A stretch of 64,000 bases of DNA. Source: Polynucleobacter sp. HIN7. Its GTDB lineage: Bacteria > Pseudomonadota > Gammaproteobacteria > Burkholderiales > Burkholderiaceae. The position numbers and the translations under genes were made by a program. The stretch lies in contig NZ_AP028138.1 of the NCBI RefSeq assembly GCF_030297595.1, forward strand, positions 1,364,001 to 1,428,000, written 5' to 3'. The notes under the pieces are model-generated. The model was given only the letters and a program-made list of their open reading frames with translations. It did no database searches and was not told the origin of the DNA. This document shows positions 41,685 to 58,949 of the stretch, piece by piece (position 1 is the first letter of the stretch; the number at the start of each line of letters is the position of its first letter).

Positions 41685-42533
41685 TCAGGTCGAGGGTGTC
41701 TGAAAAACCACACGCTCTGGGGCGTTGTAGATCTCAAAGTGCTTACCGGAGCAGCGCGAGAGCAAGGTTAAATGGGTCTTTTTGGCCAGCTCCAAGCCCA
41801 TCTGCGTAACCCCGGAACGGGTCAGCAAAAAGGGAATACCCATCTGAGCCCCCTTGATCACCATCTCCGAAGTTAGGCGCCCGGTCGTAAAAAAGATGAG
41901 GTCCTCACCATGGCGCTTAGCCAACCAAAGTAAGCCCGAAATGGAGTCAACTGCATTGTGCCGGCCCACATCCTCAATCAGATGCAAGAGTCTGACCCGA
42001 TCGTCCCCAGCACGCTCAAATACCGCACAGGCATGCACAGAGCCCGCTTTCTTGTAGATGGTTTCATGAGCCCGGATTTGCTCTAAGAGATCCACAATCG
42101 CCGCCTGATGAAGCTTAGGGCCGTCTGGTAGCCGAATCTGGGCCATATCCTCCATCAGCCCACCAAACATGGTGCCTTGGCCACAGCCCGTGGTCACGAC
42201 ACGCTTACTGGTGATTGCATCAATATCGACTGTGGCTCTGCGGGTCTTCACCGCCGCTGAGTCGGTTTCCCAATCAACCTGAATGCTCTCAATATCCTCA
42301 GCCGACTCCACCAATCGTTGGTTGCGTAAATATCCTAGGACCAAGGCCTCGGGCGCCGCACCCAAGGTCATGAGGGTTACCACCTCGCGCTTATCCAAGT
42401 AGATGGTCAAGGAGCGCTCGCCTGGAATAAAGGTTGTTTTCTGACGTCCTAACTCATCAATAATCGCCACCTCATGAACCACGGGTACAGAAGCGTTGGT
42501 CATTGCAATAGTGGATTGCGAAGTCTTACTCAT
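41685..42533 (-). CDS. fdhD: Formate dehydrogenase accessory sulfurtransferase FdhD
   Basis: A 282-residue protein that passes sulfur from IscS to the molybdenum cofactor of formate dehydrogenase. Family landmarks include LGAAPEALVLGYLRNQRLV, VTTGCGQGTMFGG and HACAVFE, and the mocofactor-binding region IEDVGRHNAVD. In E. coli the sulfur-carrying loop is CxxC; here the second cysteine position reads Gly (CGQG), leaving one cysteine. The formate dehydrogenase itself is outside the window. Confidence 0.92.
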   Translation of the reverse strand: MSKTSQSTIAMTNASVPVVHEVAIIDELGRQKTTFIPGERSLTIYLDKREVVTLMTLGAAPEALVLGYLRNQRLVESAEDIESIQVDWETDSAAVKTRRATVDIDAITSKRVVTTGCGQGTMFGGLMEDMAQIRLPDGPKLHQAAIVDLLEQIRAHETIYKKAGSVHACAVFERAGDDRVRLLHLIEDVGRHNAVDSISGLLWLAKRHGEDLIFFTTGRLTSEMVIKGAQMGIPFLLTRSGVTQMGLELAKKTHLTLLSRCSGKHFEIYNAPERVVFQTPST

Positions 42534-46260: not shown

Positions 46261-47196
46261 TTAAGCGTCAAAGAACTGGCCGACTTGAATACCGGCTGCA
46301 CTGGCACACTCAGAGCCAGAGACTTTGGAACCTTTTCCAACTTTGGCTTTCAGAACCTCGATCTGGCCGCCATGGCAGGCCACCTTAAACGAGTCTGAGC
46401 TAACCTCAACCACTTCGCCAGGCTTACCCTTAACCGATCCGAAGGTCGGGGTGACATGCTTGCGCACATCATAGATCTGAACCTTCTCACCATTAAGCGC
46501 AGTCCATGCACCTGGGGCTGGATTGCATGCCCGAATCAAGTTATAGATTTGGCTGACGTGATTTGACCAATGAATCCGAGCGGCGGCTTGGTCAAACCAC
46601 CCTTCATAATTTGCTTGCGACTCATCTTGCACAATCTCTTGATGCTTGCCGGCCGCTACGAGGTCAGCTGCTTCCAATAATGCCTTTACCCCCAATGGGA
46701 AGAGATGATTAAAGTACACCTGACCCAGGGTATCGTCTGGACCAATTGGCACTTCCTTTTGCAAAATGATTTCACCCTCATCTAAACCATCTGAGGGTCG
46801 AAAGATCGTTAATCCGGTTTTGGTTTCGCCCAAAGCAATCGACCAACCAATAGCGCTGGGACCACGGTATTTTGGCAACAGTGATGGGTGATACTGAATC
46901 GTGCCAAACCGAGGAATCTTCACTAAATCCTGGGGTACAAATTGCAATACATAGGCCATCACACAAATATCAGCCTTGCTATCGCGCATTGCATTGGCAG
47001 CCTCAGGCCCCTTGAGACTAGGGAACTGGAGCATATTGAGGCCCCGAGCCAAAGCGGTCTCTTTAAGGATCTCGGGCTTGGTGGCTTTCGGATTATCGGG
47101 TGGACAAAACACAGCCACCACCTCATCCCCACGCTCCAGAAAAGCCTCGAGTGCGGCCTTACCAAAATCTTGACTGCCAATCAGTGCAATGCGCAT
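46261..47196 (-). CDS. Formyltransferase-like protein of the oxalate module (10-formyl-THF hydrolase-domain type)
   Basis: A 311-residue protein with an N-terminal formyltransferase fold (IALIGSQDFGKAALEAF) and a C-terminal Fmt_C-like domain. The catalytic histidine is at 103 (QYHPSLLPKYRG) and the aspartate at 139 (DGLDEGEIILQKE). The DGLD...FPLGVKALLEAADLV...NYEGWF pattern resembles the hydrolase domain of 10-formyltetrahydrofolate dehydrogenase more than Fmt, and no dehydrogenase domain is attached. Its start overlaps the frc stop in TAATG. In this context it may handle the formyl unit made from oxalate, by moving it to or from folate; that is inference. Confidence 0.75.
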   Translation of the reverse strand: MRIALIGSQDFGKAALEAFLERGDEVVAVFCPPDNPKATKPEILKETALARGLNMLQFPSLKGPEAANAMRDSKADICVMAYVLQFVPQDLVKIPRFGTIQYHPSLLPKYRGPSAIGWSIALGETKTGLTIFRPSDGLDEGEIILQKEVPIGPDDTLGQVYFNHLFPLGVKALLEAADLVAAGKHQEIVQDESQANYEGWFDQAAARIHWSNHVSQIYNLIRACNPAPGAWTALNGEKVQIYDVRKHVTPTFGSVKGKPGEVVEVSSDSFKVACHGGQIEVLKAKVGKGSKVSGSECASAAGIQVGQFFDA

Positions 47197-48443
47197 TAGA
47201 TGACTTTCTTATGTCGTAAATCAATCAGATCATCGATATTAAAGCCAAGTTCTTGCAAGATCTCATCGGTGTGCTCGCCCAATAGAGGGGAACGAGTGAC
47301 CTCGGTGGGGCTATCCGATAGTTTGATCGGATTACCAACCGTCAAATACTTACCTCGAATGGGGTGATCAACTTCCACCACCGTACCCGTGGCACGTAAA
47401 GCAGGCTCTTCAGCAATCTCTTTCATCGAGAGAATTGGGCCACAGGGCACATCATATTGATTGAGAATATCCATCACCTCAAACTTGGTCTTGGTCATGG
47501 TCCACTTCTCAATCTCTGCAAAGATTCCCATCAGACGTGGTAAGCGCGCCATTGGCGACGCATAATTAGTATCGGTAATCCAATCCTCACGACCAATCAC
47601 TTTACAAATGGCTTCCCAGACAGCTGCTTGAACCACGATGTAGATATAGGAATTAGGATCAGCTTCCCAGCCTTTACACTTCAAAATCCAACCGGGCTGG
47701 CCGCCACCAGACGCATTGCCCGCGCGAGGCACTGCATCACCAAACTTACCATTGGGAAACTGTGGATACTCTTGCATCGTGCCGTTACGCTCCAAACGCT
47801 GTTGGTCACGGAGCTTGACGCGGCAAAGGTTGAGAACCGCATCTTGCATGGCAGCATCGACCTTTTGCCCCTTGCCAGAGTGGGTGCGATGATAAAGTGC
47901 GGTCACAATACCAAGCGCCAAGTGCAAACCAGTTCCACTATCACCAATCTGCGCACCCGTTACCATGGGTGGGCCATCATCAAAACCCGTGGTTGATGCA
48001 GAACCGCCCGCACATTGCGCAACGTTCTCATACACCTTGCAATCCTCATAAGGCCCTGGTCCAAATCCTTTAATCGACGCCATGATCATGCGAGGGTTGA
48101 GTTCTTGAATGCGCTGCCAGGTAAATCCCATGCGATCCAAAGCGCCTGGAGCGAAGTTCTCAACCAAGACATCACACTGCTTAATTAGACGCTCCAGAAT
48201 ATCCTTCCCTTCTGGTGTTTTGGTATTCACGGTAATCGAGCGCTTGTTGTGATTGAGCATCGTGAAATACAAGCTATCGGCATCAGGTATATCTTGGAGT
48301 TGATTGCGTGTTGCATCACCCTCACCCGAGCGCTCCACCTTAATGACATCCGCTCCAAACCAAGCGAGCAACTGGGTGCACGTCGGCCCAGATTGAACGT
48401 GCGTAAAGTCGAGGATCTTAATCCCCTCAAGTGCTTTAGCCAT
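47196..48443 (-). CDS. Formyl-CoA:oxalate CoA-transferase paralogue (distal copy)
   Basis: A 415-residue class III CoA-transferase. The catalytic aspartate is at 168 ([11 protein letters not shown]). The flexible glycine loop reads ASGGGQPGW (245-249), with serine replacing the first glycine of the GGGGQ found in the proximal copy. The two proteins are otherwise closely similar along their whole length. It is the fifth gene of the oxalate module, coupled to the formyltransferase by TAATG. It may move CoA between formate, oxalate or a different acid; specificity is not readable. Confidence 0.88.
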
Positions 48444-48545
48444 AAAAAAGTCCTAAAAAGTATGAAAATATGATGAAAGCCATTTTACCAGTGCTGGTAT
48501 TAGCCAAAAATGGTGTTCGATGACCAATTTGAGTCAACACGCCAA

Positions 48546-48977
48546 TTAAGCCCCCGGCTTGGATTCCAGCTCGATCAGACGCTTTTTGAGTTCTTTTTCC
48601 TCCAAGAATCGTGCGGTCTCATCCCGAATCACCGCAACCACACCGTTAACCCGATGATGTTCATCATGAAGCATGGCGACCGTGAATGCGATCGACAGGG
48701 TATGCCCATCTTTATGAATAGCTGGCACTCGCAGGGTTTGCTTGCTGTACTTTGTGGTGCCTGTTTCCATCGAGTGGTGATAGCCTTCCCAATGACGCGC
48801 CCGAAATCGCTCCGGTGTAATGATGTCTAGATTTTGTCCCAAGGCCTCTGCCGCGGTGTATCCAAACATTTCTTCGGCAGCACGATTCCACAGGGTAATT
48901 TTGCCTGCTACATTGGACACCACGACAGCATCGCCAATCGCCTCAATCAGCTGATGAAGATCGACCTCATCCTCCAT
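48546..48977 (-). CDS. Free-standing PAS domain protein
   Basis: A 143-residue protein consisting of a single PAS S-box (about 10-125) and a short C-terminal helix (KELKKRLIELE); no kinase, GGDEF or DNA-binding domain follows. The start ATG at 48975-48977 is preceded by AAGGAGAG; a longer frame to 49031 would begin inside the upstream terminator. The segment PERFRARHWEGYHH contains a histidine at the place where FixL-type PAS domains bind heme, but that residue is also common in non-heme PAS domains. It lies between two frc genes, so it may sense a redox or metabolic signal of oxalate use. Confidence 0.8.
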   Translation of the reverse strand: MEDEVDLHQLIEAIGDAVVVSNVAGKITLWNRAAEEMFGYTAAEALGQNLDIITPERFRARHWEGYHHSMETGTTKYSKQTLRVPAIHKDGHTLSIAFTVAMLHDEHHRVNGVVAVIRDETARFLEEKELKKRLIELESKPGA

Positions 48978-48992
48978 GATCCGCTCTCCTTG

Positions 48993-49021
48993 AAAAACAA
49001 ATGGCGCCCGCAGGCGCCATT
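48993..49021 (-). terminator. Intrinsic terminator between proximal frc and the PAS gene
   Basis: On the minus strand the stem AATGGCGCC-TGCG-GGCGCCATT is followed by TGTTTTTC. It lies 18 bp after the proximal frc stop and just before the PAS ribosome-binding site, dividing the oxalate module into an upstream part (oxc-frc) and a downstream part fed by readthrough or its own promoter. Confidence 0.85.
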
Positions 49022-49039
49022 GCTTAATCACGAATACGA

Positions 49040-50290
49040 TTAGACTGCTTTTGCTGCATGCAACTGAGCAATTTGGTCTTTGCTGTAGCCAAGATCTGAG
49101 AGAACTTCATCGGTGTGCTCACCCAAAACTGGGGATGGCTTCACTTCAACTTTCAGTTCGGAGAACTTAATGGGGCTACCAATTGTCAGGTACTTGCCGC
49201 GTACTTTGTGATCCACTTCCACGATGGAACCGCTGGCACGCAAATCAGGTGACTCAGCAATCTCTTTCATCGAGAGTACGGGTGCGCATGGAATATCGTA
49301 CTTACGCAAGATATCAACCGCTTCGTACTTGGTCTTATCTTTGAGCCAATCTTCAATGGTTGCGAAGATGTCAAAAATCTTATCTTGACGAGCTTCTGCA
49401 GTCATATAGGCTGGATCGGTTGCCCACTCCGGCTTACCGAGAGCTTTGGTAATTGGTTCCCAAGCATGACCTTGAATCGTGAAATAGATGTAGGCATTTG
49501 GATCAGTTTCCCAGCCTTTGCACTTTAAGACCCAGCCAGGCTGTCCGCCACCACCGGCGTTACCGCCACGGGGCACGACATCAGTAAATTTGCCATGAGG
49601 ATACTGTGGGTACTCTTCGAGATAACCGACGCGATCCAAACGCTGCTGGTCACGCAACTTCACACGGCAGAGGTTCAATACGGCGTCTTGCATTGAGCAA
49701 GCCACTTTTTGACCTTTACCGGTCTTTTGACGATGCATGAGGGCAGTCAAAATACCAATCGCCAAGTGCATACCGGTATTGCTATCGCCCAATGCGGCAG
49801 CAGATACGGTGGGGGGGCCGTCCCAGAAACCAGTGGTCGATGCAGCACCGCCAGCACACTGAGCCACGTTCTCATACACTTTTAGATCCTCATAGGAGTG
49901 ACCGTCGGAGAAGCCTTTTACGGAAGCCAAGATCATCTTGGGGTTCAATTCCATAATGCGATCCCATGAGAAACCCATGCGATCTAAGGCACCAGGACCA
50001 AAGTTCTCAACCATCACATCAGAAACTTTAATCAACTTCTCGAGCACTTCTTTACCCTGAGGAGTTTTGGTATCCAAGGTTAAGGAACGCTTGTTACCGT
50101 TGAGCATCGTGAAATACAAGGCATCAGCATCCGGAATATCGCGCAACTGACTGCGGGTCACGTCGCCAGAGCCGGGACGCTCTACTTTAATGACGTCGGC
50201 ACCATAAAAGCCAAGCAATTGGGTGCAAGCAGGACCTGCTTGTACGTGGGTGAAATCGATAATCCGAATTCCGTCTAGTGGTTTACTCAT
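49040..50290 (-). CDS. frc: Formyl-CoA:oxalate CoA-transferase (proximal copy)
   Basis: A 416-residue class III CoA-transferase that exchanges CoA between formyl-CoA and oxalate. The catalytic aspartate is Asp169 ([11 protein letters not shown]), the same number as in Oxalobacter formigenes Frc, and the glycine loop is [10 protein letters not shown] (GGGGQ at 246-250). The start [17 protein letters not shown] is canonical. It follows oxc by 37 bp on the same strand, so the two are a single catalytic pair. Confidence 0.95.
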
Positions 50291-50327
50291 CTTGAATCTC
50301 CTTTGGACTCTTTATATCAATTAATGA

Positions 50328-52064
50328 TTACTTCTTAGTTGCAGTAGAAGCTGGGTTGAGGTTGGTTAAACGACCACTCTCAGTACCGGCAGTTTCATCG
50401 ATCACAGCATTGATGACGGTGGGCTTGCCAGAAGCTAATGACTTGTTCAATGCATCAGTCAACTCCTCAGGGGTGGTGACGTTATATCCGACTCCACCAA
50501 ACGCCTCCATCATGATGTCGTAACGGGCATTCTTCACAAACACGGTTGGCGCAACATCAGAGCCACCCGTGGGGTTCACATCAGTACCACGGTAAACGCC
50601 GTTATTGTTAAATACCACCGTGATGATTGGCAAGTTATAACGGCAGATGGTTTCGAGTTCCATGCCGCTAAATCCAAATGCGCTATCACCCTCGATCGCA
50701 ATGACCGGTAACTTACTTACCACTGCGGCGCCGATGGCGTAACCCATACCAATACCCATAATGCCCCAAGTTCCGGAGTCAAAACGCTTACGTGGCTTGT
50801 ACATATTGACGATGCTACGGGCATAGTCAAGCGTATTGGCACCTTCGTTCACGATATTGACTTCGGGATTGGCCTTCACCACTTCGCGAATTGCACGCAA
50901 TGCGCTGTGGAAGTTCATAGGCGATGGGTTCTTGGAGAGTGTCTCCTCCATCTTGGCAATGTTCTTCTCTTTTTTCTCGTTGATTGCATTAATCCATTCA
51001 GCGCTGGGCTTGGGAACGCTTGCAATTTGCTTCAAGATCTCAGTCACACACGAACCAACATCACCAATGACAGGTGCTGCGATCGGAACGTTACTATCGA
51101 TTTCGGTCGGTGCGATATCAATTTGAATAAATTTCTTCAAATGATTGCCCCAAGTTTTACCTTTACCATGAGCCAATAACCAATTTAAGCGGGCACCAAC
51201 TAACATCACCGCATCGGCTTCTGCCAACACAAATGAACGCGCTGCGGATGCGCACTGTGGGTGGTTATCGGGTAATAAACCCTTGGCCATGGACATTGGC
51301 AAATAAGGAATGCCTGATTTCTCAACCAAATCTTTGATCTCTTGGTCGGCTTGCGCATAAGCAGCGCCTTTACCCAACAAAATCAAGGGGCGCTTAGCAT
51401 TCTTCAATACATCGATAGCGCGCTTGATCGCGTCTGGAGCAGGAATCTGCTTCGGTGCTGCGTCAATCACGCGGAACAATGATTCTTGTCCCTTTTGAGC
51501 CGGAATACTTTGTCCCAATAACTGTGCAGGCAGGTCGAGATAAACGCCGCCTGGACGTCCAGAGACCGCAGCACGAATGGCGCGAGCGACACCAATGGCA
51601 ATATCTTCTGCCTTATTAATCCGGTAAGAAGCTTTCGCATAAGGCTTAGCAGCATTGAGCTGATCCATCTCTTCGTAATCACCCTGTTGCAAGTCCACAA
51701 TCTCACGCTCGCTCGATCCAGAAATCAAGATCATGGGGAAGCAGTTGGTAGTTGCATTAGCAAGGGCAGTCAGACCATTTAAGAATCCGGGGGCCGACAC
51801 CGTTAAGCAGATGCCAGGCTTTTGGGTCATATAACCAGCAATCGCTGCAGCATTACCAGCATGCTGTTCGTGACGGAAGCCAATGAAGCGCATTCCTTCC
51901 GCCTGGGCCAAACGTGCTAAATCGGTAATTGGAATACCAACGAGTCCAAAAATGGTATCGATATCGTTGGCCTTTAAGGCATCGATCACTAAATGGAAAC
52001 CGTCGGTTAATGGGGTATCTTCTGCAGCAGCATTGGCAGAATGCTCTTTCGTCGCTGTCAACAT
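50328..52064 (-). CDS. oxc: Oxalyl-CoA decarboxylase
   Basis: A 578-residue ThDP enzyme that converts oxalyl-CoA to formyl-CoA and CO2. The ThDP-activating glutamate is Glu66 (GFRHEQHAG); [32 protein letters not shown] (a close match to the O. formigenes enzyme) and the C-terminal ThDP block [15 protein letters not shown] (here IEGDSAFGF) are present. I chose the ATG at 52062-52064 after GGAGAGAG; a second in-frame ATG at 52112 with GGAGAC upstream is possible and would add 16 residues. It heads the catalytic part of the module. Confidence 0.95.
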
Positions 52065-52248
52065 AACGTTGTCTCTCTCCGTGGGATTGGTTGTCTTCAG
52101 CATTGCCTCCATAAAAGAGTCTCCGCTGAACTGAAACGAATCTTAGGACTCATAGATAGCTTCAGCATTGACTTTCGTCAATTTCCCCTAAAATCCAATA
52201 AAAACCTAGGGTTAGAGCCTACTCAATCCCCTAAAAAACCCTTTTATT

Positions 52249-52866
52249 TTATATAAATAGCTCTTTGTGTTTACTCTTTAAACGGCTTAGAGTTTCGGGC
52301 GAAAGATTGAGATAGGCGGCTAATTCTTTCTTGGGCAAAACATCGAACAAGTTTTCATATTTCCGCAAAAATCGCTCGACTCGGCCCGGGGCATCGAGCA
52401 TGTGCAGGGTAATGGTGTGCGCCATGATTTCACTCATGAGACGCATTACCTCAAACTCGAAACTTTCTTTCAGTTTTGGATGATTCTCTAGAAACTCAGC
52501 CCACTTTTTAAGCGGCATCCTCGCCACCCTTGCCTTGGTAACCGAAGCGATGCTGTATGGAGCGGCGCGCTGTAAGCGCCAAGCGGCGTAGCTGGTTTCA
52601 ATATCTTTCTCAATGGCAAAACGCAAGATCATTTCTTTTGCATCGGCACTCGACACAATGCGCTTCAAGATTCCATCGAGAACAAAATACTGCTCCATTT
52701 GATAGTTACCTTGGCGCAATAAGATCTCGGATTTCTTCAGATCCGAGATCTCAAGAGAGCTCTCTAATTCAGCCATGCTGCCCGGGTCTAGATTACGCAG
52801 GACAATGTTTTGGCTTAGCTGCAAGCGAATTAGGTTTTTCTCTGGATGTCTGTCTAGTATGGTCAT
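52249..52866 (-). CDS. Crp/Fnr-family transcriptional regulator
   Basis: A 205-residue regulator with a cyclic-nucleotide-type sensor domain (about 18-135, including ILLRQGN and a YFVLDGILKR strand), a long dimer helix and a C-terminal winged helix (PKKELAAYLNLSPETLSRL). It contains no cysteine, so it cannot carry an FNR-type Fe-S cluster. It lies upstream of oxc in the same direction, with 184 bp between them, and is the obvious candidate regulator of the oxalate module. The effector is unknown. Confidence 0.88.
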   Translation of the reverse strand: MTILDRHPEKNLIRLQLSQNIVLRNLDPGSMAELESSLEISDLKKSEILLRQGNYQMEQYFVLDGILKRIVSSADAKEMILRFAIEKDIETSYAAWRLQRAAPYSIASVTKARVARMPLKKWAEFLENHPKLKESFEFEVMRLMSEIMAHTITLHMLDAPGRVERFLRKYENLFDVLPKKELAAYLNLSPETLSRLKSKHKELFI

Positions 52867-53271
52867 TGAAATATGTGCTTGAACCTCTCATTGTAAGCCT
52901 TTCAACATCACATATTCGGGTTATTCCTAGTCGCAGATAGGGTAATATAGGGCTGTCGTGGTGCCCAAATGCTTGCATTTGGGTTAAACGGGAAACACTA
53001 CCCAAACGTGTGCTGCCCCCGCAACGGTAAGTGAATGCGCTAGTCATTTAGCGCTATGGTTTGATAAGCCACTGTGTGTCAATACATGGGAAGGCCAAAT
53101 CTAAAGTTCACCAGCCCGGATACCGGCCAAGACAGGTGGAATTTCGCGGACGGGGATCTTCGCGCGCCAATATAGGGTCCTCGCACACCCTCATTGACGC
53201 TCATCCCTATTCCGAATTCTGTATCGCCCGCTAACGGGGAGGTTGGCAGGCATTACAACTTGGGATTCATC
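52867..53271 (+). other. Intergenic region carrying the cobalamin leader
   Basis: This 405-bp gap separates the leftward regulator from the rightward btuB-like gene. It holds the regulator's promoter at its left end, the cobalamin aptamer in the middle (listed separately), and about 130 bp of expression platform on the right. TAATAT at 52943-52948 could be the -10 of the leader transcript. No further gene is seen. Confidence 0.6.
52955..53140 (+). ncRNA. Cobalamin (AdoCbl-type) riboswitch
   Basis: The leader shows the conserved B12 elements in order: an opening GGTGCCC...GGGTTAAACGGGAAAC region, the core TGCCCCCGCAACGGTAAG, variable peripheral stems, and the B12 box AGCCCGGATACCGGCC followed by AAGACA. 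It lies directly upstream of a TonB-dependent receptor and a BtuM-like gene, the expected targets. Cobalamin binding should repress both. The aptamer edges are approximate. Confidence 0.95.
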
Positions 53272-55248
53272 ATGCAACCTTGCCGTAACTCTTTCGGAGC
53301 CAAGAACCGTTGGCGCCTATCTGCACTCACCCTCGCCTCAACCCTTGTTTTCAGTAACCCAACTACATTTGCTCAAAGCAGCAGTGTCTCGGTCAGTACA
53401 GCCAATAATCCAATGGATCCGGTAATTGTCACTGCAACTCGTACCCCCACGCGTGCCAATGACGTTCTAGCTGACTACGTCTACATCGGCCCCGAAGAAA
53501 TTGCTGATGCGGGGCAAACAAGTCTAGTGGAGCTATTACAGCGACAAAGGGGGGTGGAGATTTCTACTATTGGCGGCCCGGGGTCAGCAGCAAGCGTGTT
53601 CTTGCGGGGATCAAACTCCAATCAAGCTCTTTTATTAGTCGATGGCGTTCGCAGTCAAGCTGCGGGAACGGGTGGATTTTCTTTACAAGCAATTCCACTT
53701 GGCATTATTGATCGAATCGAAATCATTTTTGGGCCGCAGAGTAGCTTGTATGGCTCTGACGCTATTGGTGGCGTCATTCAGATATTCACCAAAAAGGGAA
53801 CAGGGCCTTTTCAAGCGAACGCTTCAACGGGATATGGCAGTTATGGCACGAGTATTACGGATGCAAGCCTCTACGGTTCCTTTGGGGATACCAAGACAAC
53901 TAGCTATGCCCTCAGTGGATCCCAAGAGATTTCTACTGGATTTACTTCAGTTGCAGCAAATAACGTTTGCAATCCCAATACTCAATCAAGGGCGACTCTG
54001 AACAGGAATTTTTGTGGCAATGGCCTAGATATGAATCGAACCGGCTATACAAAGAGTGGTGGCGCTGGTCGTATTGCCCAGGAATGGGATCGTGGTCAAG
54101 AGTTTGGATTTCAGTTTTTGGCTTCGCGACTCGACAATCAATATCCCGTTGCTAATTTTTATGGTGGCGGTATAGGAAGCCAAATTAGTAATTTGGGGAT
54201 CTTTTCTTTGTTTTCGAATAATCAAATCAACAAAGACTGGAAAAGCATGCTTCAAATCTCCCAATCAAATGATTACTCACAAAACCTCTATAGCTCCGGG
54301 AATCCTGTTTATAAAACAAAGCAGATGATTTATTCCTGGCAGAACGATATCAAAATTGGCAGCGATTTGTTGCAACTCGTTGCCGAGCGAAAAACTTTAA
54401 ACGGGTATTCGAATGATGGTGGAATTGTCAGTCAAAACCAAAATACCAATACCGTGGCAGGTTCTTATCAACTTAAGCGCGGATCTCACTTAGCAAACCT
54501 CGCGCTTCGCAATGACAGTATTACCGGATATGGGCCACAAACAACCGGTAGCGCATCGTATGGCTATTTTTTCTCTAAACAAATTCGAGGCAATATTAAT
54601 TACGGCACCGGCTTTAAGGCGCCCTCGTTTAATGATTTGTATTTTCCAGATTACGGCAATACAAATTTGCAAGCGGAAAAGAGTAAAAATACCGAGATTG
54701 GTCTGCACTATGAATCTAGCAAATTAGATCTACATTTAATTGGATTTAATAGCACCATCACCAACCTCATTCAGTACACCACCACGGCTCCCCCGTGTAC
54801 GATTGCACAACTCAATGGTCCAAACTATGGTTGTGCTGGAAACGCTGGCGTTGCAAAAATCTCTGGTGTATCGGTTGGCGGCATTGCAAAGTTATCAAGT
54901 CTTCGCTTAAAGGCGTCCTATGATCAGCAAAATCCAATTGATCAGACTACTGGGTTTTTGCTAGCAAAACGTGCTCGTCAATTCGGAAACCTTGGCGCCG
55001 AGTACCGCTATCGGAAAGTGAATATGGGTGCCGAAGGAACTTTCCAAGGTGGTCGCTATAACTCTGGTAACTCCGGTTATATGGGCGGCTATGCGATCTT
55101 CAACTTGTATGGCAATTACGAGTTTGCCAAAGATTGGTCGATCTTTGGTCGTTGGAACAATATCTTCAATAAGGATTACCAGCTGTCCTATGGATTTAAT
55201 ACCCCGGGATCGAACCTTTTTGTCGGGGTTCGGTACGCCATGAAATAA
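53272..55248 (+). CDS. btuB: TonB-dependent outer-membrane cobalamin receptor (BtuB-like)
   Basis: A 658-residue outer-membrane transporter. I start at the ATG at 53272, which opens a signal peptide ending near TTFAQS; a start 78 bp upstream would add an uncharacteristic leader. The TonB box region (DPVIVTATRTPT) precedes the plug domain (SLVELLQRQRGVEI, FLRGSNSNQALLLVDGVR, IDRIEIIFGPQSSLYGSDAIGG). A beta-barrel follows and ends FVGVRYAMK with the aromatic-proximal C-terminus usual for barrels. The cobalamin riboswitch in its leader identifies the ligand. Confidence 0.93.
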   Translation: MQPCRNSFGAKNRWRLSALTLASTLVFSNPTTFAQSSSVSVSTANNPMDPVIVTATRTPTRANDVLADYVYIGPEEIADAGQTSLVELLQRQRGVEISTIGGPGSAASVFLRGSNSNQALLLVDGVRSQAAGTGGFSLQAIPLGIIDRIEIIFGPQSSLYGSDAIGGVIQIFTKKGTGPFQANASTGYGSYGTSITDASLYGSFGDTKTTSYALSGSQEISTGFTSVAANNVCNPNTQSRATLNRNFCGNGLDMNRTGYTKSGGAGRIAQEWDRGQEFGFQFLASRLDNQYPVANFYGGGIGSQISNLGIFSLFSNNQINKDWKSMLQISQSNDYSQNLYSSGNPVYKTKQMIYSWQNDIKIGSDLLQLVAERKTLNGYSNDGGIVSQNQNTNTVAGSYQLKRGSHLANLALRNDSITGYGPQTTGSASYGYFFSKQIRGNINYGTGFKAPSFNDLYFPDYGNTNLQAEKSKNTEIGLHYESSKLDLHLIGFNSTITNLIQYTTTAPPCTIAQLNGPNYGCAGNAGVAKISGVSVGGIAKLSSLRLKASYDQQNPIDQTTGFLLAKRARQFGNLGAEYRYRKVNMGAEGTFQGGRYNSGNSGYMGGYAIFNLYGNYEFAKDWSIFGRWNNIFNKDYQLSYGFNTPGSNLFVGVRYAMK

Positions 55249-56096: not shown

Positions 56097-56430
56097 AGTG
56101 AGCCTTGCTGGCCATAAAATCACGCTAGCTACATCAAGCGATCATGAGCCATTACTTCGCGAGGCCTGCACCTTAGTAGATGAACAGATTAAGTTAGCTC
56201 TAGCCAGTGGTAATAAAAGTATTGAACGGGCAGCCATGATGGCGGCCATTAAATTAGCGGGTGACCTGATTCAAGCTCAGCAATCTTTGGCACAAGCAGC
56301 CAACGCCCCCAAGGTTGACCCCGAACAACTGACTTTGATTGAGCAGGAAGTCAATGCGCTTGAACAGCAAGTCGATTCCCTGATCAAAACACTTTCCCTG
56401 CCTGGTGCGCCAAGGCCAATAGTTCCTTGA
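56077..56430 (+). CDS. zapA: Cell division protein ZapA
   Basis: A 117-residue protein that binds FtsZ filaments and stabilises the Z ring. The N-terminal VSLAGHKITLATSSDHEPLLREAC and the central helix with AAMMAAIKLAGDLIQAQ match ZapA, and a coiled coil forms the C-terminal half. It is followed directly by 6S RNA, the conserved order in many proteobacteria. Confidence 0.92.
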   Translation: MTQQRIEVSLAGHKITLATSSDHEPLLREACTLVDEQIKLALASGNKSIERAAMMAAIKLAGDLIQAQQSLAQAANAPKVDPEQLTLIEQEVNALEQQVDSLIKTLSLPGAPRPIVP

Positions 56431-56434
56431 ACCG

Positions 56435-56612
56435 ATGCGTAAGCATACGGAACGGGTATTGCAGTATGGGCGCGAGCGTCTGATCGATTTACAGTGTGGG
56501 CTAGTCCGATACTCCCTGAGTCATTTGATGCACCCGAAGTATTGCTACCGTGCCACCTTGAACTTTAGGGTTCAGGATGACGGTCTAGCGACCAAGGCGG
56601 GGATCCTTGCAT
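56435..56612 (+). ncRNA. ssrS: 6S RNA (ssrS)
   Basis: The sequence between zapA and the TauE gene contains the recognisable 6S segments GGGCTAGTCC, CTCCCTGAG and, in the 3' bubble strand, CACCTTGAAC-TTTAGGGTTCAGG, a hairpin close to the E. coli CCTTGAACC...GGGTTCAAGG. 6S RNA mimics an open promoter and binds sigma70 RNA polymerase. Synteny with zapA supports the call. Ends are estimated; the 3' end may run into the next start codon. Confidence 0.8.
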
Positions 56613-57429
56613 GTTTCTGACTGATATTGCAATCCTGCTGGTTTGCGGAGCCTGTGCAGGGTTCTTAGCGGGTCTGCTTGGGATTGGCGGGGGAATGATT
56701 TTGGTCCCCTTCATGATCATTGTCTTTAATCACCAGGGCTTTAGCCAAGACATCATTGTTCATATGGCCATTGCCACTGGAATGACCACCATTTTGTTTA
56801 CCTCACTGTCAGCCATTCGGGCGCATCATCGCCATGGCTCAATTGACTGGAAACTGGTTGCGGGCTTCACCCCCGGAATCATTGTGGGGAGTTTTTTAGG
56901 AGGTAGCGAACTATTTGAGGCATTCAATACTGGCTGGCTCTCCCTCTTCTTTGCCATCTTTATTGTGTACACCTCGATTCAGATGTTCATCAACAAAAAG
57001 CCCAAGCCCGAACGTGAGCTACCTGGTAAGGTCGGCTTATTCTCTTATGGCGCCTTCTCCGGAGGGCTATCGAGCTTACTAGGTGCCGGTGGCGCCTTTG
57101 TCACCGTGCCATTCATGATCTGGTGCAATGTGAGTCCCCATGTCGCAATGGCAACCTCCTCGGGGCTCGGATTTCCGATTGCGCTTGCCTCAACCTTGGG
57201 TTACGTCTTTGGTAGCTTTGGTCGGCCCGACTTACCGGCAGGATCTTTTGGCTTCATTTATCTACCGGCCGTTGCCTGCATCGTAGCAACGAGTATTTTT
57301 ACTGCCCCACTTGGAGCAAAATTAGCTCGCAAGCTCAATGTCGTTCAACTCAAGCGAGTCTTTGGGGTAATGCTAATGTTCTTGGCGCTCTTTATGTTCA
57401 ATGAGGCCCATAAAGCGCTTGGCGCTTAA
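56611..57429 (+). CDS. TauE/SafE family anion exporter
   Basis: A 272-residue membrane protein with eight hydrophobic segments in two repeats. Each repeat contains a glycine-rich turn: GFLAGLLGIGGGMILVPF in the first and GGLSSLLGAGGAFVTVPF in the second. This is the TauE/SafE (DUF81) signature. Members export sulfite or organosulfonates, but the substrate here cannot be deduced. It sits immediately after 6S RNA, where many proteobacteria have a 5-formyl-THF cyclo-ligase gene. Confidence 0.88.
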   Translation: MFLTDIAILLVCGACAGFLAGLLGIGGGMILVPFMIIVFNHQGFSQDIIVHMAIATGMTTILFTSLSAIRAHHRHGSIDWKLVAGFTPGIIVGSFLGGSELFEAFNTGWLSLFFAIFIVYTSIQMFINKKPKPERELPGKVGLFSYGAFSGGLSSLLGAGGAFVTVPFMIWCNVSPHVAMATSSGLGFPIALASTLGYVFGSFGRPDLPAGSFGFIYLPAVACIVATSIFTAPLGAKLARKLNVVQLKRVFGVMLMFLALFMFNEAHKALGA

Positions 57430-58949
57430 TGGCTGTACTGCTGGCGCAATACGTTCTTTTGGACCTTACCCATGGCGTTTCGGGGTAAGTCGTTGACAAT
57501 TTCAACCCGCTTGGGAACTTTGAAGTTTGCAATCTTTGACTTGAGAGCATCGATCATCGATTGGCTATTGAGTTTGGCGCCTGGCTTTGGAACCACCACG
57601 GCCATGACCGCCTCACCAAAGTCTTTATGCGGAATCCCAATCACCGCGCTTTCCTCAACCCCATCCATGTCATCAATAAAACTCTCAATTTCTTTTGGAT
57701 AGACGTTGTAGCCACCCGAGATAATTAAATCCTTATTGCGACCCACGATGCACAGATAGTGATCAGGCACTTTACCGGCACTGGTTTCACCGCCCCAACG
57801 ACCCACATCACCCGTTTTAAACCAACCGTCTTTAGTGAACTCCTCAGCGGTCTTCTCAGGCATGCGCCAGTAGCCCTTAAATATATTCGGACCGCGCACT
57901 TCAATGGCACCAATCTCGTTGACATCACAGAGTGATCCGGATTCATTCACGACACGAACCTCAACTCCAGGAAGAGGAACGCCAACGGATCCCCCAACTC
58001 TGGCACCCTTATACGGATTAGAGACCAACATCACAGTCTCACTCATACCATAGCGCTCAAGAATAGTATGACCAGACACTTTCTGGAAATTATTAAAGGT
58101 CTCAGTTAATAAAGGTGCGGAGCCTGAAACAAAGAGGCGCATGTTTTTACAGACGCTCTGATTAAAGTTCGGATCCAGCAGAAGGCGTACATAGAATGTT
58201 GGCACGCCCATCATGACGGTTGAGCGTGGCAAATGCTTAATGAGTTGTGCAGTATCCAAACGAGGCAACCAAATCATTTTGCTGCCGTTTAATAAAGCGC
58301 CATGGGCAGCAACAAACAATCCGTGCACATGGAAAATGGGCAGAGCATGCAAAAGGACATCACCTTTTTTCCAGCCCCAAAACTCTTTTAATACCAGGGC
58401 ATTACTACCCAGGTTACCGTGCGTGAGCATGGCACCTTTACTGCGACCTGTAGTACCGGAGGTGTACAAAATAGCAGCTAGTTCGTCGTCGGCTTTTTTA
58501 ACGGTCTTAAATTGATCGGAACACTGAGCAGCGCGATCTAAAAGTGATCCGGTCCGATTCTCATCGAGGGTGAATACATTTTGAGTGCCGCTCTTAAATG
58601 CAATCTTTGAAATCCAAGAAAAGTTCTTGGAACTGCAAACGACAACGGCTGGTTCTGCATTCTCTAGAAAATACTGAATCTCAGACTCTTGATACGCCGT
58701 GTTCAAGGGTAAGTACACATACCCGGCACGTAGAGTGGCCAGATATAAGAAAAGTGCCTCTGGGGATTTTTCAACTTGGACAGCAACTCGTGAGCCTTGG
58801 GGTAACTTCAAGCTCTTAAGAAGATTTGCCATCATGGCCGTGGCGCGATCGAGATCGCGCCACGAGTAATACAGTCCGTCTTGGGTTTCTAGTGCACAGT
58901 CCTCGCGATTTTTAGGAAAGCCAGACTCTAATAATGCGTATAAGTTCAC
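57426..58949 (-). CDS. matB: Malonyl-CoA synthetase
   Basis: A 507-residue AMP-forming acyl-CoA synthetase. The phosphate-binding loop YTSGTTGRSKGAM, LPIFHVHGLF, YGMSETVM and the GWFKTGDVG hinge are all intact, and PRNAMGKVQKNVLR near the end carries the catalytic lysine. HALPIFHVHGLFVA and similar blocks match MatB. It starts with GTG at 58947-58949. Its operon partners, a malonyl-CoA decarboxylase and a Bug receptor, identify malonate as substrate. The stop overlaps the convergent TauE gene by 4 bp. Confidence 0.9.
   Translation of the reverse strand: MNLYALLESGFPKNREDCALETQDGLYYSWRDLDRATAMMANLLKSLKLPQGSRVAVQVEKSPEALFLYLATLRAGYVYLPLNTAYQESEIQYFLENAEPAVVVCSSKNFSWISKIAFKSGTQNVFTLDENRTGSLLDRAAQCSDQFKTVKKADDELAAILYTSGTTGRSKGAMLTHGNLGSNALVLKEFWGWKKGDVLLHALPIFHVHGLFVAAHGALLNGSKMIWLPRLDTAQLIKHLPRSTVMMGVPTFYVRLLLDPNFNQSVCKNMRLFVSGSAPLLTETFNNFQKVSGHTILERYGMSETVMLVSNPYKGARVGGSVGVPLPGVEVRVVNESGSLCDVNEIGAIEVRGPNIFKGYWRMPEKTAEEFTKDGWFKTGDVGRWGGETSAGKVPDHYLCIVGRNKDLIISGGYNVYPKEIESFIDDMDGVEESAVIGIPHKDFGEAVMAVVVPKPGAKLNSQSMIDALKSKIANFKVPKRVEIVNDLPRNAMGKVQKNVLRQQYSH

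Follow-up and report, generated by a model that had tools for sequence, protein, structure and literature searches.

In the coenzyme A (CoA)-dependent breakdown of oxalate, the CoA-transferase Frc activates oxalate and the decarboxylase Oxc converts oxalyl-CoA to formyl-CoA. The closest described gene sets, yfdXWUVE of Escherichia coli and the uct genes of Acetobacter, encode this Frc/Oxc pathway with paired CoA-transferases, and clusters with two YfdW-type copies have also been mentioned (PMC3720670; here and below, papers are cited from excerpts). Here, we analyzed a 64,000-nucleotide stretch of the Polynucleobacter sp. HIN7 genome (order Burkholderiales; contig NZ_AP028138.1, positions 1,364,001 to 1,428,000; the whole stretch is referred to as the window). 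Six genes, all on the minus strand, follow one another in it in the order crp-like, oxc, frc1, PAS, frc2 and FT, the last encoding a stand-alone formyltransferase of 311 residues. The host genome is a single contig of 1.8 Mb and is 99.96% complete. The locus shares paired CoA-transferases with the yfd and uct sets; unlike there, both copies are of the Frc rather than the YfdE type, and FT, the PAS gene and the crp-like gene are added. We find that FT is kept next to frc and oxc across the order and recurs beside frc outside it. We suggest that FT passes the formyl group from formyl-CoA to tetrahydrofolate (THF), which is the most likely mechanism in our view, although we give it only about an even chance.

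The genes lie where a preliminary description of this DNA had placed them, and the arrangement for which it had looked to relatives is found there as well. In a scan for FT relatives, 196 were found and the best 80 were fetched as loci; 63 of these 80 show the full order crp-oxc-frc1-(PAS)-frc2-FT, 54 with and 9 without PAS, while 16 of the 80 end at contig breaks and agree as far as the sequence reaches. The six-gene order is not a product of chance. Among 22 genomes of the genus, FT (called at E ≤ 1e-40) and oxc (E ≤ 1e-100) occur together in the same 18 and are both absent from the same four. In a sample of 300 Burkholderiales genomes, oxc (called at E ≤ 1e-180) is present in 51 and FT in 58 (E ≤ 1.8e-99, 52–100% identity; four weaker matches, with E of 1e-50 to 4e-46 and 33–36% identity, were taken as Fmt-like and dropped). 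Both genes are found in 47 genomes, FT only in 11, oxc only in 4 and neither in 238 (Fisher p 2e-39, a value that ignores the relatedness of the genomes). Where both lie on one contig they are at most 10 kb apart in 41 of 41 genomes; in the other six they are split across contigs.

To these data we added every oxc locus outside the genus (47) together with 20 others, 17 of them around FT and three around Fmt-like matches. Fifty-five FT loci of the order outside Polynucleobacter were available, 54 from the order sample plus L188. In 49 of them frc lies directly upstream of FT (within 300 bases, same strand), and in 46 either oxc (37 loci) or a thiamine diphosphate (ThDP) enzyme that takes its place (9 loci) lies within 8 kb. 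In 47 of the 55, a Crp-like relative of 53–64% identity is found no more than 8 kb from FT, and a TctA-type transporter gene is near FT in 34. In L144, L149 and L151 the order is antiporter-FT-oxc, with frc elsewhere in the genome. Ten of the loci compared hold no FT: six are oxc contigs with FT on another contig, and four (L111, L112, L115 and L157) come from genomes without an FT ortholog. Other genes that recur, often after FT (for example L123 and L126), encode a CHASE2-protein kinase (19 loci), a PP2C phosphatase (14) and an FHA protein (7).

FT (positions 46261–47196) carries PF00551 (104.8 bits, cut-off 26.1) and PF02911 (68.2 bits, cut-off 21.1) and no other domain. It has both Pfam domains in common with the methionyl-tRNA formyltransferase Fmt, whose name it bears in the database; yet it stays under the cut-off of the Fmt model (TIGR00460, 171.2 against 201.5 bits) and is only 33–35% identical to three Fmt-like sequences of the order. 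The best solved relative, both by sequence and in a Foldseek search with an AlphaFold2 model of FT (pLDDT 82.8, pTM 0.71), is the hydrolase domain of 10-formyl-THF dehydrogenase (ALDH1L1, 1s3i/4qpd), with Fmt structures following at a nearly equal Foldseek score. FT and the ALDH1L1 hydrolase domain are 38.4% identical over 242 columns and share the HxSLLP motif as well as the active-site His, Ser and Asp (positions 103, 105 and 139 of FT), which are unchanged in 79 of 79 FT rows of our tree alignment; unlike FT, ALDH1L1 has carrier and aldehyde dehydrogenase domains in the same protein. The two also differ in the residue before the His. The Asn at this position in transferases, termed crucial in Fmt, ArnA and GART (PMC4388273), is Ile in the ALDH1L1 hydrolase domain and Gln in FT. 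All 134 FT of the order that were compared have Gln (81 of these being the window and Polynucleobacter-type loci; L171 was omitted for an internal stop), and outside the order 13 of 16 have Gln and three Cys.

We therefore rejected FT as the housekeeping Fmt, since it falls below the cut-off and has lost the Asn. That FT is a paralogue of Fmt or another amine formylase, placed in the cluster by history, would fit its database name, its retained C-terminal domain and the closeness of Fmt structures in the fold search; given the score below the Fmt cut-off, the absence of the crucial Asn from every FT compared and the joint loss of FT and oxc within the genus, we consider it very unlikely. A hydrolase that frees formate and THF from 10-formyl-THF, and thus balances the folate pool during oxalate degradation, is likewise unlikely, if less so. 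The closest solved relative is itself a hydrolase domain in which Ile replaces the transferase Asn, and FT, too, lacks the Asn; however, the FT residue is Gln or Cys instead of Ile, hydrolysis would create a futile cycle beside Fhs, another route to 10-formyl-THF, and it gives no reason for the tie to frc. The hydrolase domain of 10-formyl-THF dehydrogenase is reported to pass its formyl group to a phosphopantetheine thiol (PMC6802093). A thiol partner is therefore the natural reading for FT as well, and beside Frc and Oxc that thiol would be CoA. The N-terminal domain of HypX/HoxX (6j0p) has a common fold with FT at 19–20% identity and was proposed, without direct experiment, to transfer formyl from 10-formyl-THF to CoA (PMC6802093); unlike FT, HypX has a C-terminal enoyl-CoA-hydratase-like domain and lacks the Ser of the triad, which FT keeps.

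The association with formyl-CoA enzymes extends beyond the order. A phylum sample of 398 genomes (FT called at E ≤ 1e-55) added four new FT genomes, one of them (G828) in the same order, and in a sample of 220 genomes from the class of G753, which we take to be Alphaproteobacteria and among whose listed genomes none belongs to Burkholderiales, FT is present in 14, one already known. Of the 16 FT loci outside the order, eight have frc immediately upstream of FT, and in six fhs adjoins FT: the order is frc-FT-fhs in L206, L207, L213, L214 and L215, and fhs-FT in L190. A formate-dehydrogenase-like gene is also found in L206, L214 and L215. Searching plasmids by tblastn with the FT of L214 (E ≤ 1e-60) gave one match, in Paracoccaceae CP031587.1 (48.8%). 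At L209 and L216, a small open reading frame (ORF) that resembles a pterin dehydratase by eye adjoins FT.

Within the order, fhs lies at most 15 kb from FT in 25 of the 31 genomes that have both on one contig. L170 combines frc-FT with phosphoenolpyruvate carboxylase (over its cut-off) and SucCD-type ligase subunits (over general cut-offs), and nearby are malic-enzyme-like, CitE-like and NuoF-like proteins, all below cut-offs; we read these neighbors as a putative serine-cycle set. L171 has the same gene clusters, and in both genomes oxc is on another contig. Since frc/oxc-type and fhs/serine-cycle-like neighbors recur, FT has been retained next to genes for each side of the proposed reaction, that of formyl-CoA and that of 10-formyl-THF.

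In nine of the 11 genomes with FT only, a ThDP enzyme 25–27% identical to Oxc replaces oxc beside frc and FT (L158–L162, L164–L166 and L168), and relatives 53–55% identical to the L165 enzyme occur at four of the 16 loci outside the order (L206–L208 and L215). The L165 protein does not reach the cut-offs of PRK05858 (487.3 against 587 bits) or of a 2-hydroxyacyl-CoA lyase model (NF058623, 372.2 against 600 bits); among solved structures it is closest to 2-hydroxyacyl-CoA lyases. It is a candidate for a second oxalyl-CoA decarboxylase or a 2-hydroxyacyl-CoA lyase. Both activities would give formyl-CoA.

The gene order frc-FT-fhs can also be read in the opposite direction, in which FT makes formyl-CoA from 10-formyl-THF and CoA and thereby primes or refills the Frc/Oxc cycle, a role like that suggested for YfdE with acetyl-CoA; Fhs and FT together would then drive formate to formyl-CoA at the expense of ATP. 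The HypX N-terminal domain was proposed to run this way (PMC6802093), and priming of oxalate cycles has been argued for (PMC3720670). We nonetheless judge this direction unlikely, given that Polynucleobacter has FT and no match to Fhs, either in the HIN7 genome or in the three other Polynucleobacter genomes of the order sample. FolD, however, is another possible source of 10-formyl-THF. Also counting against this direction, succinyl-CoA or acetyl-CoA can replace formyl-CoA (PMC12188714).

Next to the gene identities, linkage, co-occurrence and residue signature observed here, we infer a reaction for FT and its direction. The cluster would combine a CoA-dependent oxalate module with an exit to folate: part of the formyl-CoA would hand its CoA to oxalate via Frc and leave as formate, and FT would shift the remaining formyl groups from CoA to THF, yielding 10-formyl-THF and free CoA. 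The 10-formyl-THF may in turn feed purine, formyl-methionine and serine synthesis. In relatives with fhs next to FT, formate and FT would supply one common folate pool, and in Polynucleobacter, where the four genomes searched lack Fhs, FT could be a direct entry of oxalate carbon into folate. A wider version, in which an undescribed formyl-CoA:THF formyltransferase couples the makers of formyl-CoA (Oxc or the ThDP enzyme) to folate, with Fhs run in reverse to make ATP where the order is frc-FT-fhs, is possible but quite unlikely. If true, it would amount to a substrate-level phosphorylation that has gone unrecognized in the breakdown of oxalate or glyoxylate. An enzyme that joins formyl-CoA to folate, in whichever version, would save ATP on the way from formyl-CoA to one-carbon (C1) assimilation and would suggest a route for oxalate carbon into biosynthesis in freshwater bacteria described as not assimilating oxalate; the database name methionyl-tRNA formyltransferase would then need correcting.

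Several observations weigh against the proposed reaction of FT with formyl-CoA and THF. A quick tree separates FT and the dehydrogenase domain from the three Fmt-like sequences, but it places the dehydrogenase domain among the FT rows, at the end of a very long branch (support 84), and therefore does not show FT as a separate group. FT is found in only 10 of the 398 phylum genomes, and six of the 16 FT loci outside the order have none of the neighbors described above. The same holds for L188, whose genome has oxc elsewhere, and for L075. Fhs (PF01268; fragments over the cut-off counted as present), as a rival route to 10-formyl-THF, is present in 51 of the 58 FT genomes, compared with 70 of the 242 others; the same count led us to reject FT as a mere replacement for Fhs. 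FT is missing from three oxc loci of the same family (L111, L112 and L115; all with oxc and frc1, two with PAS) and from their genomes (G009, G020 and G002). Growth on oxalate requires frc-oxc in Cupriavidus necator (PMC7486775) and oxc in Burkholderia phytofirmans (P. phytofirmans; PMC3886118), with FT unmentioned in the excerpts of both papers. As there are oxc genomes that lack FT and accounts of growth on oxalate that do not mention it, the enzyme is not needed for oxalotrophy.

The physiology of the genus also weighs against the proposal. According to PMC5018217 (see also PMC3308952), oxalate is not assimilated by P. asymbioticus, P. duraquae, P. yangtzensis and P. sinensis, and the full cluster is present in records of P. 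yangtzensis (L029) and P. sinensis (L025). Because carriers of the cluster are so described, oxalate is unlikely to be a main carbon source in Polynucleobacter, and a role in providing C1 units and reducing power would fit better. The HIN7 genome encodes a formate dehydrogenase that scores above its cut-off.

With regard to L075, the locus comes from a metagenome-assembled genome labelled Ferrovum; its FT is 76% identical and sits beside ModA/ModB-like genes, the stretch holds no frc or oxc, and the contig could be wrongly binned.

The identities given to oxc and frc in the preliminary description are borne out. Oxc (50328–52112) exceeds the cut-off of its NCBIfam model (TIGR03254, 995.5 against 739.4 bits) and aligns over residues 30–594 of 594 to solved Oxc chains (relatives 7ayg and 2c31); a second ATG at 52064, with a motif resembling a ribosome site by eye, is its likely start. 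Frc1 (49040–50290) and Frc2 (47196–48443) exceed the formyl-CoA:oxalate CoA-transferase cut-off (TIGR03253, 730.3 and 739.2 against 504.2 bits) and align to solved Frc chains over residues 1–411 of 416 and 2–411 of 415, respectively, with YfdW (1pt5) as the best solved relative of both. Their scores for the YfdE-type model PRK11430 (181.1 and 208.4 bits) are far under the cut-off of 522, and frc2 as a YfdE-type primer was rejected on this ground.

The two frc genes differ in kinship. A quick tree built from 82 Frc sequences leaves many forks open; in it, frc1 groups with frc1 of G002, G009 and G020 (same family) and of G201, and frc2 is set apart from the FT-accompanying frc genes of other genomes of the order. 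Frc2 is 80–81% identical to the second copies in G009 and G020 and 72–77% identical to most FT-adjacent frc genes outside the order, but only 53–61% identical to FT-linked frc elsewhere in the order; the second copy of G002 (64%) and L215 (59%) deviate from this pattern. FT itself is placed among the FT of the order. Given these differing kinships of frc2 and FT, we rejected joint inheritance of frc2, FT and crp as a single block. As frc2 and FT differ in nearest kin, the Polynucleobacter cluster appears to be a mosaic, combining an oxc-frc1-PAS type with an FT type. Such mosaicism, together with the loss of PAS from nine of the 63 complete clusters, would be expected if this were an ordinary oxalate cluster with FT, PAS and frc2 as passengers without a joint function; we regard that explanation as highly improbable, in light of the frc-FT adjacency, which is seen again in a second class and involves different frc lineages.

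The frc2 and FT genes overlap by one base and are probably translated jointly. ORF spacings along the cluster, from crp-like to FT, are 136, 37, 8, 102 and −1 bases. The PAS ORF (48546–48977, about 143 residues) is open to a GTG at 49031, and ATG 48977 has a GGAG that resembles a ribosome site by eye; with this start, the gap to frc1 is longer and holds a terminator-like hairpin (49000–49021, minus strand; nine pairs, six of them GC, with a T-rich tail). Terminator-like sites in the region are not above chance (eight, shuffle mean 7.8), and a promoter scan of the region gave three promoter-like sites, fewer than in shuffles (mean 8.2).

The PAS protein is a single domain (PF00989, 62.3 against 22.6 bits; TIGR00229, 74.6 against 22.9), with the PAS model over its cut-off and no effector domain. 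The nine clusters that lack the gene have frc1-frc2 gaps of 172–264 bases, too short for PAS, and it also follows frc1 in three loci without FT (L112, L115 and L136). We therefore rejected PAS as an essential part of the cluster; it is dispensable. The Crp/Fnr-like regulator (205 residues, 52249–52866) barely exceeds the cNMP_binding cut-off (27.8 against 27.5 bits), and no DNA-binding model is reported for it at E ≤ 0.001. The proposal that the added genes serve extra C1 handling or sensing thus stands in its first part for FT, which tracks oxc and frc and adjoins fhs at six of the 16 loci outside the order, and is without direct support in its second. Similarly, when the added genes were followed in relatives for loss of linkage, frc and FT stayed linked and PAS was missing from nine of the 63 complete clusters.

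Elsewhere in the window, a cobalamin riboswitch (52942–53145, 89.4 against 31.5 bits) lies upstream of an ORF (53194–55248) that is TonB-receptor-like by eye and diverges from the oxalate cluster. A 6S RNA match is found at 56392–56607 (56.9 against 46.4 bits), a malonyl-CoA-synthase-type ligase at 57426–58949 (847.8 against 558 bits), about 4.6 kb from the cluster, and an FdhD-like protein below both cut-offs (125.3 against 269; 118.6 against 140.9) at 41685–42533, about 3.7 kb from it.

A pair of frc genes near oxc is already described (PMC3720670) and not new; for FT in an oxalate cluster we found no description in the excerpts of open-licence literature covered, most subscription journals lying outside this scope. 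Overall, the module varies on oxalate clusters already known, with an FT link that we did not find in print within that literature. According to PMC6802093, the only role reported for formyl-CoA had until then been that of a substrate of formyl-CoA:oxalate CoA-transferase; a recent synthetic pathway links it to C1 assimilation via free formate and formate-THF ligase (PMC11961710). Fhs, which adjoins FT at six of the 16 loci outside the order, fills the 10-formyl-THF pool, as proposed for FT; Fhs uses formate and ATP for this purpose, whereas FT would use a formyl thioester.

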